Part shown: positions 4,425-13,956 of the stretch, in pieces
Numbering within the stretch: the stretch's first letter is position 1
Layout of the letters: each line of letters opens with the position of its first letter
Origin: Nocardiopsis xinjiangensis YIM 90004
Lineage (GTDB): Bacteria; Actinomycetota; Actinomycetes; Streptosporangiales; Streptosporangiaceae
Reading direction: 5' to 3'
NCBI RefSeq assembly: GCF_000341145.1
Contig: NZ_ANBE01000011.1
Span: 181,034 to 226,829, forward strand
DNA length: 45,796 bases
Program-made: the position numbers and the translations under genes
The notes under the pieces: model-generated
Databases searched by the model: none
Told to the model about the DNA's origin: nothing
What the model saw: only the letters and a program-made list of their open reading frames with translations

Positions 4425-5198
4425 TCAGCCGGGAGGCGACGGCGACCAGTGCTGCCGCAACCGTTCGGCCAGATCCGGGCGCCCGAGCCCCTCCAACATA
4501 CGGGTCAACCGTGTCAGGACCGCTTCCTTCTCCTCCTCGTCCAACCCTCCGACGAAGGCCTCCAGGATGGGGTCCGCCTTACCCTCACCCGTGCCTACGG
4601 CCGGTGTCGCCCCTTCGGCCGTGGTGGCCATGGCATCAAGGGCCTCCCCGGCCTTCTCGATCTCGTACAGCATCTCGGGGTTCTGTTCGTACCACCACAC
4701 GCGGGCGACCTCCGGATCGCTGAGCACGTCCCGGCGCAGTTCGTCCACCCGCTGCATGCGCACACGGTGGATGGCCTTGTGCACCTCGTTGCGTGGACCG
4801 ACCCGTTCGCGTTCACGTTCGATGGCCAGGTCGTCCTTGTCGGCAGCCAACGTGACGGAGACGGCGACGTCGCGTACGGCGTCGTCACGAAACCCTTGCT
4901 TGTCGGAGACCGCACAGGCGATCTCGGCCTCGGCCGTGCCCCGGTCACCGAGGCAGTACCGCGCCCCCACCTCCGTTGCCACACGGATGACCTCACGTTG
5001 GATCCGTGCCGTAGCCCGGGCCCGGGCTACGGGGGAAGCGCCGTTCCACGAGACGATGACCTCGAAGGAACCGTCGAACCACATGCCCTCGGCATTGGTC
5101 GGGACACGTGCCTGAAAGGCGTGTGTGTCATCGGGGGGCCTGAAGGCGATGCTCCAGGACGGGACCTCACCTCGGGTGTTCCTGCGGCGTCCGATCAC
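4425..5198 (-). CDS. Unknown protein with SPFH/band-7-like layout, third gene of the cyclase-NTPase operon
   Basis: 257 residues, no signal peptide or clear membrane helix. Residues about 12-55 look beta-rich (HAFQARVPT, FDGSFEVIVSW). A long helix with many Arg and Ala follows (ARATARIQREVIRVATEVGA), then a second beta segment (VRDVAVSVTLAAD, about 108-120) and a charged coiled-coil-like helix (about 122-165), then a WWYEQNPE segment and an acidic tail. This order (beta domain, helix, strand, coiled coil) resembles an SPFH/stomatin domain, but I recognise no diagnostic motif, so that is inference. GTG 5198 overlaps the stop of the NTPase gene (GTGA), implying translational coupling and a shared function. 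It carries no copy of the RHIM-like motif seen in its two operon partners. Confidence 0.55.
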   Translation of the reverse strand: MIGRRRNTRGEVPSWSIAFRPPDDTHAFQARVPTNAEGMWFDGSFEVIVSWNGASPVARARATARIQREVIRVATEVGARYCLGDRGTAEAEIACAVSDKQGFRDDAVRDVAVSVTLAADKDDLAIERERERVGPRNEVHKAIHRVRMQRVDELRRDVLSDPEVARVWWYEQNPEMLYEIEKAGEALDAMATTAEGATPAVGTGEGKADPILEAFVGGLDEEEKEAVLTRLTRMLEGLGRPDLAERLRQHWSPSPPG

Positions 5199-7276
5199 CG
5201 GTCCTCCTCACGTTCGTTCAGCAGCTCGAGCAGCCGGTCCGGGACCGTCCCCTCCAATTCATGGGCGCACTTCCAGCGTTGGACGGACCGTTCCAGGTCA
5301 CGGTGGAAGACCTCGTCACCGTGCGCAGCCGACCAGAGGACCTCGAACGCTGCCTTGCGCTCGCGGCCTCCGGACTCCAGGAAGTCGAACCAGTTCCACA
5401 GCGGTCGGCCGGTCTTCTGTCCGGCACTCGTGAGCGTGCGCCAAGCATCGACGAGCACATCGGGGGCCACACCGTCACTGAGCACAGTTGGTACGGAGGC
5501 GTCGCCGCGGTCACCGAGAAGGCGTGCCAGGGCCGTGCCCGCCACCGCTTTCCTACGTCCTTTCCCGGGATCCGCCGTCCAACTTCCCAGGGTCCGTAGA
5601 ACCACGGCAGTGTGGTCGGGTTCGGCCGCGATGTCCTGGAGCGCGCTGACCAGATTCTGGTCCCACAGGGCCGAGGCCTTCTCCGTGATGAGCCGGATCC
5701 TGGTCAGAGCGCTTTCGGGACGCACACGACCATAGACTCGGCAGACTTCCAGAACGGTCCGGTCCTTCATCGGCGATCCGGTGCTCCGCACGATGTCATA
5801 CAGGGCGGCCCGGACCAGTGCCCCCAACTCGGGGGTGACCGCTGCTTCGGCGATCGCCGGAACCGCATACCACATCAAGTCGCGGGAGACCCCCCAGAAG
5901 TTGATCAGGGACTGCACCGGGGCCACGTCCTCGTGGCGCCGCGCCAGCTCGAACCAACGCCGTGCGGCCTCGACCTTCCTGTCCGTCGGGAGGTCGAGCA
6001 CAGCCTCGGCCGCCCATTCCTGGAGAGAGCCACGAGTACCGGGATGCTCCCGCCAGAGGTAGTCGAGCACGTCGGCGGCGCTCCCCGGCCGCTTGAAACG
6101 CACAGTGTCCTCCCGCACTTGGGCGCCCGTCTCCCAAAGGTGTGGCGTGAGGCCTTCACCGGAGATAGGGGTGCGCCAGAGCGAGGGAATGTGCCATCTT
6201 CTGGCCAGCCGGTCGGCGTGTTCGACGATCACCGTACGGTGGCCGCCCTCGAGCACGGCCACTGTGGCCAGAAGCACCCGTCGGAACTCGGTGTCCAAAT
6301 CCTGGCGCTTGAACCAACTTGCCAGCTCTTCGGTGGCGTCGGCGCACTCCTGGAGGACCTCTTTGATCCAGGTGGTGTAGTCCTCGTCGGTGAGGGCTCC
6401 TTCCCCCGGACGGCACTCCTTCGCTTTGTGAACGATCCGCAGGGCCCGGACGGGTTCGGCTCCGTCCAGAGTCTCCTGGAGCCCACGGTGTCCGAGCCAG
6501 TGTGCAGTGTCGGTGTCTCCGCAGCGGCTGCGCATCACCCGGTCGAAGACGTCGACGGCGCGGGCCGATCCGTCGATGGTCAACCGGCTCTGCAGGTCCT
6601 GCACATGTTCGTTCGCCTGTTCGGCACGAGCGATGAAGACCAGCATGCTCTCTGCCACACGATTTTGCTTCACCAGATTGCGCAAGGCGACCTGGTGCGT
6701 GCTCTCCAGGGCGGGGAACGAAGTCAGGTCGAGATAATACGTATGGTCGGCGTCGAGGTCGATGTGGGAGACGCCGGCGTCCTTCTCCTCGAGATCGAGA
6801 GTGAGCTGTTCGATCGGTTTTCCGGGCCGACAACTCACCAGAGAGTGGATGGCCGTCACCGTGCGACCGGTACCGGGCCTTCCCATGATGACCCCGGTCC
6901 CCGATCGGTCGAGTCCGGCGAGAAAGGCCGAATACGCGTGTGTGTCCGGGGGGCAGAAGGTAGAGACCACCTCTTCCACCCGCTCCCGCGGCACCTCAGC
7001 GGTCTGCCTGAGCCTTCGTGTCGTCTGTTCACCGATGTGCTGGTGATAATGGACGTCGCCCTTGATCTCCCCGGCCTGGAGCGCCTGCCCGGTGTTCTTC
7101 CGTATCCGGTTCGCCCACTGCTCCTTGCGTCGCTGCGTCTCGGACCGCTCGTCCCTGTCGTTCTGGTCGTCCCGGTCGTCCGTGGGCCGTGTCTCCTCCC
7201 CCGATGCCGGGCCCTTCTGGTCCTGGCGGTCGGTGCCCTCCTCCGGCCCGTTCTCCTTCTCACGCTCAGCGCTCAT
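5195..7276 (-). CDS. P-loop NTPase-like (STAND/NLR-like) protein with N-terminal RHIM-like amyloid motif
   Basis: 693 residues. ATG 7276 is chosen because it lies just inside the end of the cyclase-like gene (11-bp overlap); the longer frame upstream is a shadow of that gene. Residues 1-58 are highly charged and disordered. Residues 61-78 read NTGQALQAGEIKGDVHYH, which matches the C-terminal motif of the neighbouring cyclase-like protein and resembles RHIM-like/BASS motifs (Q-A-G-x-I/V-x-G). A Walker-A-like loop GRPGTGRT is at 132-139, with Arg where Lys is usual. VIVEHADRLARRW and similar segments suggest a winged-helix or helical region. The C-terminal half (about 380-690) is alpha-helical without obvious repeats, plausibly an ARM/TPR-like sensor. 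By analogy with bacterial NLR-like systems it would sense a trigger and template assembly of its partner. Function is inferred only. Confidence 0.65.
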   Translation of the reverse strand: MSAEREKENGPEEGTDRQDQKGPASGEETRPTDDRDDQNDRDERSETQRRKEQWANRIRKNTGQALQAGEIKGDVHYHQHIGEQTTRRLRQTAEVPRERVEEVVSTFCPPDTHAYSAFLAGLDRSGTGVIMGRPGTGRTVTAIHSLVSCRPGKPIEQLTLDLEEKDAGVSHIDLDADHTYYLDLTSFPALESTHQVALRNLVKQNRVAESMLVFIARAEQANEHVQDLQSRLTIDGSARAVDVFDRVMRSRCGDTDTAHWLGHRGLQETLDGAEPVRALRIVHKAKECRPGEGALTDEDYTTWIKEVLQECADATEELASWFKRQDLDTEFRRVLLATVAVLEGGHRTVIVEHADRLARRWHIPSLWRTPISGEGLTPHLWETGAQVREDTVRFKRPGSAADVLDYLWREHPGTRGSLQEWAAEAVLDLPTDRKVEAARRWFELARRHEDVAPVQSLINFWGVSRDLMWYAVPAIAEAAVTPELGALVRAALYDIVRSTGSPMKDRTVLEVCRVYGRVRPESALTRIRLITEKASALWDQNLVSALQDIAAEPDHTAVVLRTLGSWTADPGKGRRKAVAGTALARLLGDRGDASVPTVLSDGVAPDVLVDAWRTLTSAGQKTGRPLWNWFDFLESGGRERKAAFEVLWSAAHGDEVFHRDLERSVQRWKCAHELEGTVPDRLLELLNEREEDR

Positions 7277-8096
7277 CACGGCCCCCGAAGTTGACACCTC
7301 CGTGGACCGTTCCGGCTTGGAACATCTGGCCGCTGTTGTGCCCGACCTGGTTGACGGTCGGAGAGTCCGGGGAGTCGGACGCCGGGCCCGACGCATCCGA
7401 ACGACCACCTCCGCCAGGGGTCTCCACGGGTTGTTCCGGCGGAGAGCCCCAGGAGGGTGTGGGTACGAAGAGGTACCCCTCCGCCTGGAAGTCCTTGCTG
7501 GGTACGGAAGCGTGGACGGGCTTCCACCGGGCACTACTGATCGAGGTGAAACCGCCCAGCACCACCTCCTCGTAAACGCGCCGGGAAACAATGGTCGCCA
7601 GCAGAGTGGTGTCGGGATCGGTGTGCTTGAGTTCGTCGCGGACCGGGTCCGAGTCCAGGAGACGGTGGGTACTGATCATTGCTTCGCCCATGGCATCGAT
7701 CCCGCTTCCGTCACCCAGGTCCGGCAAAGGGCCGACGTCGATGCTCGCACGCAGGCGCATACGTAGACTGCGGTCGTGGGCGGCCAGGAAAGGTTGGACC
7801 TCTTTCAGCGCGCGCTGGAGCTCTTCGAGGAACGGATCGATGAGGAACGGCAGGTGTTCGGGATCGGCCCCCATCACGTACCCGTCGCCGTTGTGCCGGG
7901 GAAAACGCGCGTTTTTCCAGACCGAAAGCATATCGGAACGGGTGAACGCCTGTTCCAGGACCTTCAGGATCATGGGGCCGATGATCTGCTGATGGTGGGC
8001 ACTGGTACGGCTGAAGTTCTCCATGTCCACGGCGAGAACGGCCCGGTAGGGAGGCAAGGGCGCACTCTTACCGAGCGAGGAAAGATCGATGTCCAT
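7266..8096 (-). CDS. Class III nucleotidyl-cyclase-like protein with C-terminal RHIM-like amyloid motif
   Basis: 276 residues, preceded by a GAGGAG ribosome-binding site. Residues 14-212 form a cyclase homology domain. YRAVLAVDMENFSR supplies the first metal Asp (Asp24), HNGDGYVMG the second (Asp71), and LRMRLRASIDVG the following strand. In the segment that normally reads N-x-x-A-R, the protein has AMISTHRLLDS: an Arg (Arg145) but no Asn, so activity may be altered. Residues 215-250 are a Pro/Gly/Ser linker. The protein ends with NSGQMFQAGTVHGGVNFGG (254-272), nearly the same motif as in the NTPase encoded next. A C-terminal linker plus a short amyloid motif is how effectors of NLR-like systems are built, although in most described cases the motif sits on the opposite end of the pair. 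Product, if any, is unknown. Confidence 0.7.
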   Translation of the reverse strand: MDIDLSSLGKSAPLPPYRAVLAVDMENFSRTSAHHQQIIGPMILKVLEQAFTRSDMLSVWKNARFPRHNGDGYVMGADPEHLPFLIDPFLEELQRALKEVQPFLAAHDRSLRMRLRASIDVGPLPDLGDGSGIDAMGEAMISTHRLLDSDPVRDELKHTDPDTTLLATIVSRRVYEEVVLGGFTSISSARWKPVHASVPSKDFQAEGYLFVPTPSWGSPPEQPVETPGGGGRSDASGPASDSPDSPTVNQVGHNSGQMFQAGTVHGGVNFGGRDER

Positions 8097-8169: not shown

Positions 8170-8183
8170 GTTCATTTCTGAAC
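8170..8183. promoter_or_regulatory. Palindrome GTTCA-N4-TGAAC between the crp-like and cyclase-like genes
   Basis: A perfect inverted repeat (GTTCATTTCTGAAC) sits in the 119-bp gap between the Crp-type regulator (stop at 8216) and the cyclase-like gene (start at 8096), in a locally AT-richer stretch where a promoter is expected. Twofold symmetry fits a dimeric helix-turn-helix protein. The encoded Crp-type regulator is a natural candidate, though the sequence is not the classic TGTGA-N6-TCACA Crp site. Confidence 0.4.
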
Positions 8184-8215: not shown

Positions 8216-8926
8216 TCAGTCCTTGGGTGAGCCGTGGGCCAAGGACTTCAGGGCCGCCAGATCGAGGAGGGCGACGTACTGCCGTCCGGTCCTGATCAGC
8301 ATTTTCTCCTTCAATTTTGTGTAGGCGTTGTGGACCGAGGTGCGGGACAACCCCACAAAACCGGCGATATCTTCTTGCGGCAGGGCGATACGCAACAGGT
8401 GACCGCCACCCTGCGGCACACCCGCTCGGCCCAAGGCAGGCGGCATGGGCTCACCCAACATCCCGGCGAGCTGGACGAGCGCCGCCGACAGTCTGCGCTC
8501 GGCCGACAGAGTCGCCTGCTGGACCCGGAGCTGATCACTCTCGGCCTGACGCATGAGAACACTGCGCCACAACGCCGTTTCGAGGCCGAGCTCAGTGAGT
8601 CTGCGTTGAAAACGCTCTGCGGAGAGGAACACGGTGCTCCCGCCGTTGACCGCGGTCACGGTGGCGTTGCGGACCCTGCCCACAGCTGTGAGCGCCGGTT
8701 CCCCCAGGACCTCACCGGAGGTCCGGAACGCCAAAGGGACAGCAGTACCGTCCGTGCTCACGGAAACGACTCGTGCGCTGCCGTTGAGGATCAAATGTAC
8801 GCCGGCACCGTTATCTCCCTGGCGTAGGAGAGTCTGGCCCGGGGTGAAAGCACGCGGAACGATCGAGGAGGTCAGGGTCCTCCACTGTGCATCGGTGATC
8901 AGCCCACCAAAACCACGCCTGAGCAT
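8216..8926 (-). CDS. Crp/Fnr-family transcriptional regulator with a cyclic-nucleotide-binding domain
   Basis: 236 residues. The N-terminal cNMP-binding domain (about 15-130) has the jelly-roll pattern FTPGQTLLRQGDNGAGVHLILNG. The phosphate-binding cassette GEPALTAVGRVRNATVTAV keeps the Glu and Arg that contact the cyclic phosphate. A long dimer helix follows (about 130-155). The C-terminal winged helix includes LPQEDIAGFVGLSRTSVHNA (about 185-205). No Fnr-type cysteine cluster is present. The gene is on the same strand as, and 119 bp upstream of, the cyclase-like gene. A cyclic-nucleotide receptor beside a cyclase-fold protein suggests a functional link, which is inference. It may activate or repress the three-gene operon, or be an unrelated neighbour. 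Confidence 0.8.
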   Translation of the reverse strand: MLRRGFGGLITDAQWRTLTSSIVPRAFTPGQTLLRQGDNGAGVHLILNGSARVVSVSTDGTAVPLAFRTSGEVLGEPALTAVGRVRNATVTAVNGGSTVFLSAERFQRRLTELGLETALWRSVLMRQAESDQLRVQQATLSAERRLSAALVQLAGMLGEPMPPALGRAGVPQGGGHLLRIALPQEDIAGFVGLSRTSVHNAYTKLKEKMLIRTGRQYVALLDLAALKSLAHGSPKD

Positions 8927-11951: not shown

Positions 11952-12004
11952 ACTAAAGCAGCATGACTCCAAGATTGGATCTACTCAAGAAAAGGTGCTT
12001 TACT
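11952..12004 (+). promoter_or_regulatory. Putative Fur/CatR operator region in front of fur-katA
   Basis: An AT-rich stretch directly upstream of the Fur-family gene holds nested inverted repeats. The inner pair is TCCAA-GA-TTGGA at 11968-11979. An outer pair ACTAAAGCA (11952-11960) and TGCTTTACT (11996-12004) has one mismatch. Peroxide-sensing Fur proteins of actinomycetes (CatR/FurA) bind AT-rich palindromes in front of their own gene and the linked catalase gene. The position fits autoregulation; the exact box is inferred. Confidence 0.5.
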
Positions 12005-12010
12005 GGGGCC

Positions 12011-12430
12011 ATGCACCAGACCGACACCGAAACTGTCCTCCGGGCAGCTTCGCTACGTGTGACCGGGCCCCGGGTCGCGGTACTGGAGGCTGTCGAGGCC
12101 CACCCGCACTCCGACGCCGCCGCCGTACTCCAGGTGGCCCGCGCTCGGCTCGGTGCGGTGTCCAATCAAGCGGTGTACGACGTCCTCAACGCCCTGACCG
12201 GAGCAGGACTCCTACGGCGTATCGAACCCGAGGGGTCACCCGCACGCTACGAGCGCCGTGTGGGCGACAACCACCACCACGTGATCTGCCGTCGATGCGG
12301 CGCGATCTCGGACGTGGACTGCGCCACAGGAGACACGCCCTGCCTCGAGGGCTCGGACGACCACGGCTTCGTCGTCGACGAGGTCGAGGTCACCTATTGG
12401 GGCATGTGCCCCGCGTGTCAAGCAGCCTGA
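12011..12430 (+). CDS. Fur-family peroxide-responsive repressor (FurA/CatR-like)
   Basis: 139 residues, the usual Fur length. The N-terminal winged helix includes [20 protein letters not shown] and [20 protein letters not shown]. Metal-binding features are the His-rich [11 protein letters not shown] (about residues 87-98), a second C-x-x-C (CPAC) at the extreme C-terminus, and [15 protein letters not shown] between them. The first CRRCG and last CPAC cysteines would form the structural zinc site. ATG 12011 is used because the sequence upstream is the AT-rich operator. katA follows 56 bp downstream on the same strand, so this is the regulator of the catalase, sensing peroxide through metal-catalysed oxidation as in CatR/PerR. 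PerR versus FurA subtype cannot be settled here. Confidence 0.88.
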
Positions 12431-12486
12431 TCCTCCAGCTCTTGTCGCACAGCATCGAAGGTCTTCACCCAAGGAAGCAGGAGTCC

Positions 12487-13956
12487 ATGTCGCAAGACAA
12501 CACCAACCCGATGACCACGGCCAGTGGTGCACCGGTCGCCAACAACCAGGACAGCCTCACAGCCGGCCCGCGCGGCCCGATGCTGCTCCAGGACCTGTGG
12601 TTCCTCGAGAAGCTGGCGCACTTCTCCCGTGAGGTCATCCCCGAGCGCCGCATGCACGCCAAGGGTTCGGGTGCCTGGGGTACTTTCACCGTCACCCAGG
12701 ACATCACCCAGTACACCAAGGCTGCGATCTTCTCCGAGGTCGGCAAGCAGACCGAGATGTTCGCCCGCTTCTCCACCGTCGCCGGTGAGCGCGGCGCCGC
12801 CGACGCCGAGCGCGACATCCGCGGTTTCTCGCTGCGCTTCTACACCGAAGAGGGCAACTGGGACGTCGTCGGAAACAACACCCCGGTCTTCTTCTTCCGC
12901 GACCCGCTGAAGTTCCCCGACCTCAACCGCGCCGTCAAGCGCGACCCGCGCACCAACATGCGCTCGGCCGAGAACAACTGGGACTTCTGGACCAACCTGC
13001 CCGAGGCCCTGCACCAGGTCACCATCGTGATGTCGGACCGCGGTATCCCCTCGGGCTACCGCAACATGCACGGTTTCGGTTCGCACACCTTCTCGTTCAT
13101 CAACGACGACAACGAGCGTTACTGGGTCAAGTTCCACTTCCGTACCCAGCAGGGCATCGAGAACCTGACCGACGAGGAGGCCGCCGAGGTCGTCGCCGAC
13201 GACCGCGAGTCCGCCCAGAAGGACCTGTTCGAGGCCATCGAGCGCGGCGACAACCCCAAGTGGACCCTCTACGTCCAGATCATGCCGGAGGCGGAGGCGG
13301 AGAACTACCGCTTCCACCCCTTCGACCTGACCAAGGTCTGGTCCAAGAAGGACTACCCGCTCATCGAGGTCGGTGAGTTCGAGCTCAACCGCAACCCGGA
13401 GAACTACTTCGCCGACGTGGAGCAGGCCGCCTTCACCCCGGCGAACCTGGTCCCGGGCATCGGTGCCTCCCCGGACCGTATGCTGCAGGGCCGTCTCTTC
13501 TCCTACGGTGACGCCGCCCGTTACCGCGTGGGTGTCAACCACCACCAGATCCCGGTGAACTACCCGCGTGGGGTCAAGCAGGTCAACACCTACCACCGTG
13601 ACGGTGCCATGCGTGTGGACGGCAACCAGGGCGGTGTGCCCGGCATCGAGCCCAACTCCTACGGCCGTTGGGCCGAGCAGCCGGCCTACGCCGAGCCTTC
13701 GCAGGGTGTGGGGGCCACCGCCGACCGGTTCGACTACCGCGAGGACGACGACAACTACTTCCAGCAGCCCGGTGACCTGTTCCGCATGATGAGCTCGGAG
13801 GAGCAGCAGCGGCTGTTCGCCAACACCGCTCGCGCCATCGACGGTGCTTCCGAGGTCGTCGTCGAACGCCACATCAACAACTGCACCAAGGCCGACCCGG
13901 CCTACGGTGAGGGTGTGCGCAAGGCCATCGAGGCCCTCAAGGCCGGCAACCTCTGA
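12487..13956 (+). CDS. katA: Monofunctional heme catalase (small-subunit, clade 3)
   Basis: 489 residues, the typical small-subunit catalase length. The active-site motif [14 protein letters not shown] gives the distal His57, [14 protein letters not shown] gives Asn130, and [12 protein letters not shown] gives the proximal heme-ligand Tyr340. It converts hydrogen peroxide to water and oxygen in the cytoplasm. The start ATG 12487 has AGGAG at 12479-12483. Codon use is strongly biased to C-ending codons (AAC, TTC, GAC, CGC), more than in its neighbours, suggesting high expression. The Fur-type repressor gene lies upstream in the same operon and a perfect terminator follows 48 bp after the stop. 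A convergent ankyrin-repeat gene lies beyond it. Confidence 0.97.

Follow-up and report, generated by a model that had tools for sequence, protein, structure and literature searches.

BASS/NLR signalosomes are bacterial systems in which a short motif is located at the C-terminus of an effector and at the N-terminus of an NLR (NOD-like receptor) protein (Dyrka et al. 2020, as related in PMC7889193 and PMC9815663). The BASS1-10 families came out of a search through neighbouring Bell and NLR genes (PMC9815663), and bacterial amyloid signalosomes are predicted mainly around Bell-type, presumably membrane-targeting effectors, the outcome being left open (PMC7889193). A related principle is that of the conflict systems coupled by effector-associated domains (EADs), including iSTAND and iSTAND2 (Kaur et al. 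2020, 2021), in which cyclase domains are infrequently linked to iSTAND2 through EADs; the text concerned mentions no amyloid motif. The window analysed here, a stretch of 45,796 nucleotides of Nocardiopsis xinjiangensis YIM 90004, contains a locus in which a protein with a class III nucleotide cyclase fold and an adjacent STAND/NLR-like protein carry matching short motifs, and which probably represents a signalling operon composed of a CRP-like receptor and regulator, a cyclase effector, a STAND-like sensor, and a third protein.

The locus resembles BASS/NLR signalosomes in its adjacent, overlapping genes, in the single shared short motif, in the existence of several motif families, in its occurrence in filamentous actinobacteria, and in the presence of TIR proteins among the effectors. 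In contrast, the effectors of those systems are Bell, CHAT, and TIR proteins whereas here a nucleotide cyclase is found; moreover, the STAND protein is divergent, with a degenerate Walker A and no Pfam NB-ARC or NACHT match, a CRP-like regulator and a palindrome are attached, and the motif lacks the G-x-Q-x-G core. Since neither the cyclase nor the STAND protein of the window has a Pfam match, a search based on Bell and NLR genes would probably miss the pair. EAD-coupled systems share with the locus the homotypic module on the core component (the sensor) and on the effector, the inactive STAND, and the occasional cyclase, but their module is a small folded domain, whereas the module of the two-gene core described here is a short motif, placed where model confidence is low and the chain probably disordered; an EAD-type folded domain was rejected because of the low predicted local distance difference test (pLDDT) values of the motif regions in both AlphaFold2 (AF2) monomer models (about 46–52 in the cyclase, below 50 in the STAND protein). 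The logic of the locus is a known one, namely BASS/NLR motif pairing and the EAD principle; what appears to be new is the effector class, a cyclase, combined with a degenerate STAND and a putative linked messenger receptor. A pairing of cyclase and NLR by such a motif was not found in print, the word 'cyclase' being absent from the accessible text of PMC8086366, PMC12261475, and PMC9815663 in a survey whose scope left subscription papers and preprints mostly outside.

The features of the locus are the following:

7266..8096, minus strand: class III nucleotide-cyclase-fold effector, 276 amino acids (aa), with a motif on its disordered C-terminal tail
7446..8057, minus strand: cyclase domain, residues 14-217 (span of the aligned structure-model ranges)
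7281..7337, minus strand: effector-side motif NSGQMFQAGTVHGGVNFGG, residues 254-272
5195..7276, minus strand: STAND/NLR-like AAA+ protein, 693 aa
7043..7096, minus strand: sensor-side motif NTGQALQAGEIKGDVHYH, residues 61-78 (model pLDDT <50 for residues 1-80)
6338..7030, minus strand: AAA+ NTPase fold, residues 83-313 of the STAND protein (structural comparison of the predicted model)
6860..6883, minus strand: degenerate Walker A GRPGTGRT, Arg replacing Lys (alignment of 59 STAND proteins)
8216..8926, minus strand: CRP/FNR-like transcription factor, 236 aa (PF00027 4.2e-14 and PF13545, HTH_Crp_2, 2.6e-11, both above the cut-off)
8170..8183, strand not applicable: operator-like palindrome GTTCA-N4-TGAAC, lying some 80 bases before the start codon of the cyclase gene
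4425..5198, minus strand: third gene, encoding 257 aa without a Pfam match above the cut-off; 4-base overlap with the STAND stop

The order of transcription is CRP-like regulator, cyclase, STAND, and 257-aa protein. The cyclase and STAND genes share 11 bases (7266-7276), as stated by an earlier sequence-only reading of this DNA. Both motif-bearing proteins claimed by that reading are present, and the pattern it gave, N-[ST]-G-Q-x-x-Q-A-G-x-[VI]-x-G-x-V with the same spacing in both, is correct; the interval 7061-7336 that it had assigned falls a little short and cuts the second motif. The proposed placement at the effector C-terminus, where four residues follow NSGQMFQAGTVHGGVNFGG, and at the N-terminus of the NLR-like protein is also supported. 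The best local alignment between the cyclase tail and the STAND N-terminus, covering the motif and some linker, has a score of 63 that none of 300 shuffles reaches (z 7.5). Motif residues are conserved well above background: the mean pairwise column identity is 0.53 for the motif, 0.21 for the linker, and 0.65 for the domain in 55 cyclase homologues, and respectively 0.66, 0.28, and 0.54 in 22 NTPase homologues.

The pair is one member of an actinobacterial family whose motif types are numerous and whose motifs change together within pairs. A scan of genome contigs gave 132 relatives, 80 of which were kept, genes being called by a simple GC-position method and tails being cut at 90 residues, so that motifs further upstream can be missed. 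At least 8 of 396 genomes, the own one included, are positive across the phylum, a lower bound since six candidates were scored per genome; a family scan with the window cyclase is positive in 49 of 100 genomes, and the STAND profile in 31 of 61 genomes of the family and 95 of 150 of the order. A STAND frame lies directly 3' of the cyclase in 58/80 loci, which together with the window makes 59 pairs; the genes overlap in 57 of them, 46 times by 4 bases. In 51/59 pairs the score of tail against N-terminus stays above all 300 shuffles, and in 56/59 at most three of these attain it, the exceptions being L014, L033, and L037. The summed score of the true pairs is 4273, compared with a mean of 2334 (standard deviation, sd, 113; maximum 2800) in 20,000 re-pairings, and the own partner outscores every distantly related one (STAND core <40% and cyclase domain <60% identity) in 43/58 loci. 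With 625 comparisons to further genes of these loci as the control, 54/59 pairs exceed the 95th percentile and 34/59 the 99th. A family search gave 24 pairs, partly from species already sampled, of which 21 have at most 3/300 shuffles (L088, L090, and L108 fail); among 88 non-redundant pooled pairs, 80 lie above the mean plus 4 sd; in this they follow BASS, where neighbouring genes for an effector and an NLR share one short motif, C-terminal in the former and N-terminal in the latter. Co-occurring pairs, which the sequence-only reading had proposed to look for, are found in many motif types; the window pair does not stand alone, and the CRP-like regulator had gone unmentioned.

Grouping by reciprocal similarity resulted in seven multi-member motif clusters (17, 14, 11, 10, 4, 2, and 2 members) and 28 singletons, an upper figure since some singletons, such as L028 and L029, visibly belong together. 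The types include NxGQxxQAGxVxGGV in the window, AVMGxVGxDhT and GNINTGTVHGGQ in Streptomyces, YTFxGPGYVHGGTGDQ in L081, xVxGxxNTVAGRD in Lentzea, and FxERVxxAxxxGTFxGDF in Streptosporangium. Identical residues of the two partners use the same codon in 559 of 1005 cases, 514.8 being expected (sd 14.1), an excess of about 3 sd in sum that is carried by loci such as L019 (27/30, 18.4 expected), L031, and L066; same-codon use is near expectation in most pairs, so the match is mostly held at the protein level. Seven Streptomyces loci (L064, L065, L068, L069, L072, L075, and L078) have a second STAND paralogue downstream, at about 12.0-14.4 kb, which is preceded in all of them except L064 by a small protein with a GIINTGTVHGGQ-type motif; the N-termini of these paralogues, where displayed, show a similar motif.

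The label of RHIM-like motif, given by the sequence-only reading, finds no support: the G-x-Q-x-G core, known from the published BASS3 peptide, is present in 1/55 cyclase tails and 0/22 STAND N-termini of Nocardiopsidaceae, where G-x3-Q-x-G is found instead (39/55 and 3/22). Amyloid is the leading candidate for the form of motif assembly.

The class III cyclase fold of the 276-aa protein was assigned by comparison of predicted structures (CyaC 1wc1 range), which bears out the cyclase-like partner proposed earlier. The protein shares with the class III cyclases CyaC and Ma1120 the fold, the metal Asp pair, and the conserved Arg: D24, G70, and D71 are identical in 157/157 cyclase sequences and R145 is found in 156/157, with one gap (77 proteins and 80 loci, two overlapping sets). 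D24 and D71 are taken to be the metal-binding pair and R145 the transition-state Arg; D24 and D71 were mapped by offset to the 1wc1 range, D71 also by hidden Markov model alignment to Ma1120, and R145 by motif, a mapping made without an inspected superposition. In contrast to CyaC and Ma1120, the window cyclase has no Pfam match, its purine Lys and Asn positions are changed, and a motif tail is added; the cyclase profile, run against PDB sequences, found nothing beyond weak matches to Ma1120 (E 0.28).

The 693-aa protein has a AAA+/STAND NTPase fold followed by helical repeats, in the order disordered N-terminus with the motif, degenerate P-loop domain, small helical region containing a beta-hairpin, and helical repeats. 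The Walker A Lys position is occupied by Arg in 39, Ala in 19, and a gap in one of the 59 STAND proteins, and by Lys in none; the degenerate P-loop suggests that the protein is probably not an ATP hydrolyser of the usual type. The window STAND is not a canonical NB-ARC or NACHT NLR, showing no match to these Pfam families even at E 1, and no STAND or NLR chain is among the best 50 structural matches listed for its model, which excludes nothing. The nSTAND3 family (PF20720) is matched by some relatives, above the cut-off in the L145 fusion (4.4e-7) and below it in L031, L064, and L080 (three of the eight STAND proteins of that type scanned), and differs from the window STAND and its own-genome paralogue, neither of which is matched.

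The effector of this STAND family can be exchanged. In the own genome, a TIR protein (TIR_2 3.3e-9) lies before a second STAND of the family (contig C26), and the tail of the former matches the N-terminus of the latter. A census of 64 STAND loci comprised 5 TIR-known loci, 19 top-ranked ones with short flanks, and 40 in list order with 3.5 kb requested upstream; the last are the only subset free of partner choice, with some genomes sampled before. TIR calls were based on an own profile built from six sequences, five partners and the L145 fusion being confirmed by Pfam, and the 'other' partners are partly wrong-frame open reading frames. The top-ranked loci have 15 cyclase partners (13 matched at ≤1/200 shuffles; 8 with a CRP-like gene) and 4 others (none matched); the list-order loci have 10 cyclase (9 matched), 18 TIR (13 matched), and 12 other partners (2 matched). 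The motif cluster GPVxTGxGxQ is used by cyclase and TIR partners alike, and fusions occur of cyclase (2.2e-92) with part of a STAND (3.3e-20) and an FHA-like region (FHA 0.0025, below the cut-off) in L098, and of TIR_2 (1.8e-8) with STAND (1.8e-69), with a motif-like stretch between them, in L145. Modular wiring is evident from the interchange of cyclase and TIR within one STAND family. Class III cyclases need a dimer to form their active sites and TIR enzymes work as assemblies, so both would be interchangeable effectors of a kind switched on by clustering.

Proteins of 145-196 aa that combine a hydrophobic part of helical appearance with a motif-like tail lie directly before STAND genes in L195, L198, L203, and L205; none matches its STAND at ≤1/200 shuffles, and a suspected Bell-type identity was not borne out, Pfam giving nothing above the cut-off for the three scanned. 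Similar-looking proteins of about 315 aa precede STAND genes at L206:2444-3388 and L132:410-1363, the former with a motif match at 0/200 shuffles and the latter at 137/200.

The regulator belongs to the CRP family, having a cyclic-nucleotide-binding domain and a Crp-type helix-turn-helix, and its gene lies immediately 5' to that of the cyclase in 64/80 loci. In the phosphate-binding cassette, Arg is kept in 63/65 and Glu in 62/65 CRP-like sequences, window included, residues that presumably have the usual ligand-binding roles. The CRP-like gene follows the effector type: in the 40-locus sample it is present at 10/10 cyclase, 0/18 TIR, and 0/12 other partners (Fisher 8e-8 against TIR), and in the whole census at 18/25, 0/23, and 0/16. 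GTTCA-N4-TGAAC is exact in 9/65 CRP-cyclase regions, all of Nocardiopsidaceae, in comparison to 0/2419 random 230-base pieces and a fraction of 0.0003 of shuffles; at most two mismatches are found in 15 of the 19 regions taken to be from Nocardiopsidaceae, about 5% being expected. Only four places in the own genome, that of the window included, have at most one mismatch to the 16-base form, which suggests a putative private operator. Pycsar systems also combine a cyclase with a partner that binds cyclic nucleotides; unlike them, the locus has a cyclase without PADLOC match, a transcription factor as the partner, and an NLR-like sensor with a matched motif.

According to the proposed mechanism, the helical-repeat STAND would recognise a trigger and oligomerise, and its N-terminal motif would nucleate an assembly with the cyclase-tail motif of the same type, either through amyloid-type templating like that of BASS, HET-s, and RHIM signalosomes or through a similar homotypic beta-assembly. 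Clustering would join cyclase monomers, whose proximity would switch on the synthesis of a cyclic nucleotide; proximity activation is the most likely reading of the mechanism. The cyclic nucleotide would bind the CRP-like protein encoded upstream, which would act at the palindrome before the cyclase gene, with feedback and a transcriptional response, while the matched motif would give specificity between parallel circuits of one genome; a role in defence or regulated death may be envisaged. The computed basis consists of the folds, the intact Asp pair and Arg, the motif matching, the effector exchange, the fusions, the CRP linkage, and the Nocardiopsidaceae palindrome, and the whole circuit from sensor through cyclase to CRP is rather likely.

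Several observations weigh against this circuit. An intact adjacent STAND is lacking in 22/80 cyclase loci: L006 is cut by a contig end, L025 has split genes, in L073 the STAND is not adjacent, and 19 have no STAND match; L021 has neither STAND nor visible motif. Among the 59 pairs, L029, L045, L065, and L070 have short or split STAND frames, and L014, L023, L037, L051, and L080 are not above the 95th control percentile; no pair match is found in L108, 5/18 TIR partners of the 40-locus sample are unmatched, and L186, one of the two matched 'others', is an antisense artefact and hence a false positive of the matching test. Two published BASS3 or BASS3-like peptides gave no match to the tails above shuffles overall, and plain RHIM identity was rejected on the spacing, which differs from the RHIM/BASS3 core. 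Neither the cyclase, the STAND, nor the third protein has a PADLOC match. In the window cyclase, the positions assumed to hold the purine-selecting Lys and the transition-state Asn are R67, variable in relatives, and I141 (Asn in 67/157), so activity or substrate may be altered. Lastly, the CRP-like gene is absent in 16/80 loci, and among the 46 regions outside Nocardiopsidaceae six have at most two mismatches to the palindrome, about two being expected, which is not above chance but for a few cases.

Pairs with a motif in only one partner, named beforehand as evidence against the idea, are mostly not found (56/59 match). Some orphan cyclases do retain a motif with no STAND next to them. Six of the 19 STAND-less loci are Nocardiopsis cyclases (L007, L008, L009, L011, L012, and L021); the genomes of L007, L009, and L012 carry a second locus with a STAND (L010, L017, and L015, respectively), so that action of these orphans in trans is possible. 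In Amycolatopsis (L024, L030, and L036), the motif-bearing cyclase lacks such a STAND and is arranged divergently to an NB-ARC/TPR protein whose N-terminus contains a similar stretch; agreement between the two is modest (respectively 4, 0, and 9/500 shuffles over 60 residues and 9, 2, and 32/500 over 150); L058 has a similar neighbour (12 and 23/500). These NB-ARC neighbours are not the best-scoring frames of their loci, and the Pfam run covered three loci, L058 being outside. In L025 (8001-10944, Nocardiopsis eucommiae), the cyclase and STAND frames are both split, which suggests decay or sequencing error. The fourth gene of the Nocardiopsis alkaliphila locus (L010:3834-5471) encodes a P-loop NTPase with a similar N-terminal motif (AAA 1.2e-4, and nSTAND3 6e-5 below the cut-off), possibly an active sensor partner; its match in the window's own genome is weak (E 2.8e-4) and outside the motif.

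The main rival keeps the same pairing of sensor and effector and has the motifs dock as a short heterotypic beta-zipper or a co-folding beta-solenoid, not as a self-propagating amyloid. Several motif types do resemble beta-solenoid rungs (the GPVNTGSGDQ and VTINGDGNQNVFGN types) and the window motif lacks the RHIM/PP spacing, but the position, length, and low-confidence regions of the motifs in both AF2 models are as reported for BASS amyloid motifs (PMC7889193), and docking of this kind is a minority possibility. That the motifs are functionless by-products of gene boundaries, a duplicated Gly/Gln-rich segment or a low-complexity linker at overlapping genes, would agree with the frequent overlap and with the summed codon excess; it is very improbable, and non-functional duplication was rejected, given that codon sharing is near expectation in most pairs, that the motif is conserved well above the linker, that the pair matches exceed composition shuffles, and that they persist with TIR effectors and, more weakly, between the divergent Amycolatopsis genes.

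Two further alternatives concern the output. The cyclase domain could be catalytically dead, serving as a nucleotide-binding or dimerising module while the CRP-like neighbour senses something else; R67 and I141 of the window copy point in this direction, as do the inactive cyclase domains reported in vWA-linked conflict systems (Kaur et al. 2020, PMC7159879), but the invariant Asp pair, the near-invariant Arg, and the linkage of a CRP with conserved ligand residues to cyclase, not TIR, partners make it quite unlikely. The CRP-like gene could instead encode a common operon regulator with a ligand that has nothing to do with the cyclase, gene order and residue conservation being what links the two. 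Of the 16 loci without it, 12 are Amycolatopsis-type orphans and L010 and L016 are cut near the contig start, whereas L018 and L020 keep STAND and cyclase with no CRP match despite the available flank; its frequency at cyclases and its absence at each of the 23 TIR partners examined for this STAND family render this reading unlikely. The most far-reaching reading is an undescribed actinobacterial circuit in which a sensor of the NLR-like kind, its P-loop defunct, would activate a class III cyclase by motif-templated, amyloid-type assembly and signal to a dedicated CRP-type regulator, the output being a second messenger and transcription instead of membrane damage, and in which co-varying motif types would insulate circuits and allow the exchange of cyclase and TIR; for this complete picture confidence is evenly balanced.

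Regarding the rest of the locus, relatives of the third gene are present in 27/80 loci, mostly directly 3' of the STAND gene, and directly after the cyclase in the orphan loci L008, L009, L011, and L012. NCBIfam gave a match for the STAND only, at chance level, among the cyclase, STAND, and third proteins. Close homologues are from Nocardiopsis and related genera (8000 candidates scored in one of the searches). To the right of the region, window positions 11963-13956 encode, from the translations, what are presumably a Fur-like regulator and a catalase-like protein.

A cyclase effector provides a measurable output, a cyclic nucleotide, for which the linked CRP-like factor is a ready reporter. 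The within-pair match of very different motifs constitutes a natural library for the specificity code of assembly. The number of motif families may grow as well, the pairs forming seven multi-member clusters and as many as 28 singletons.

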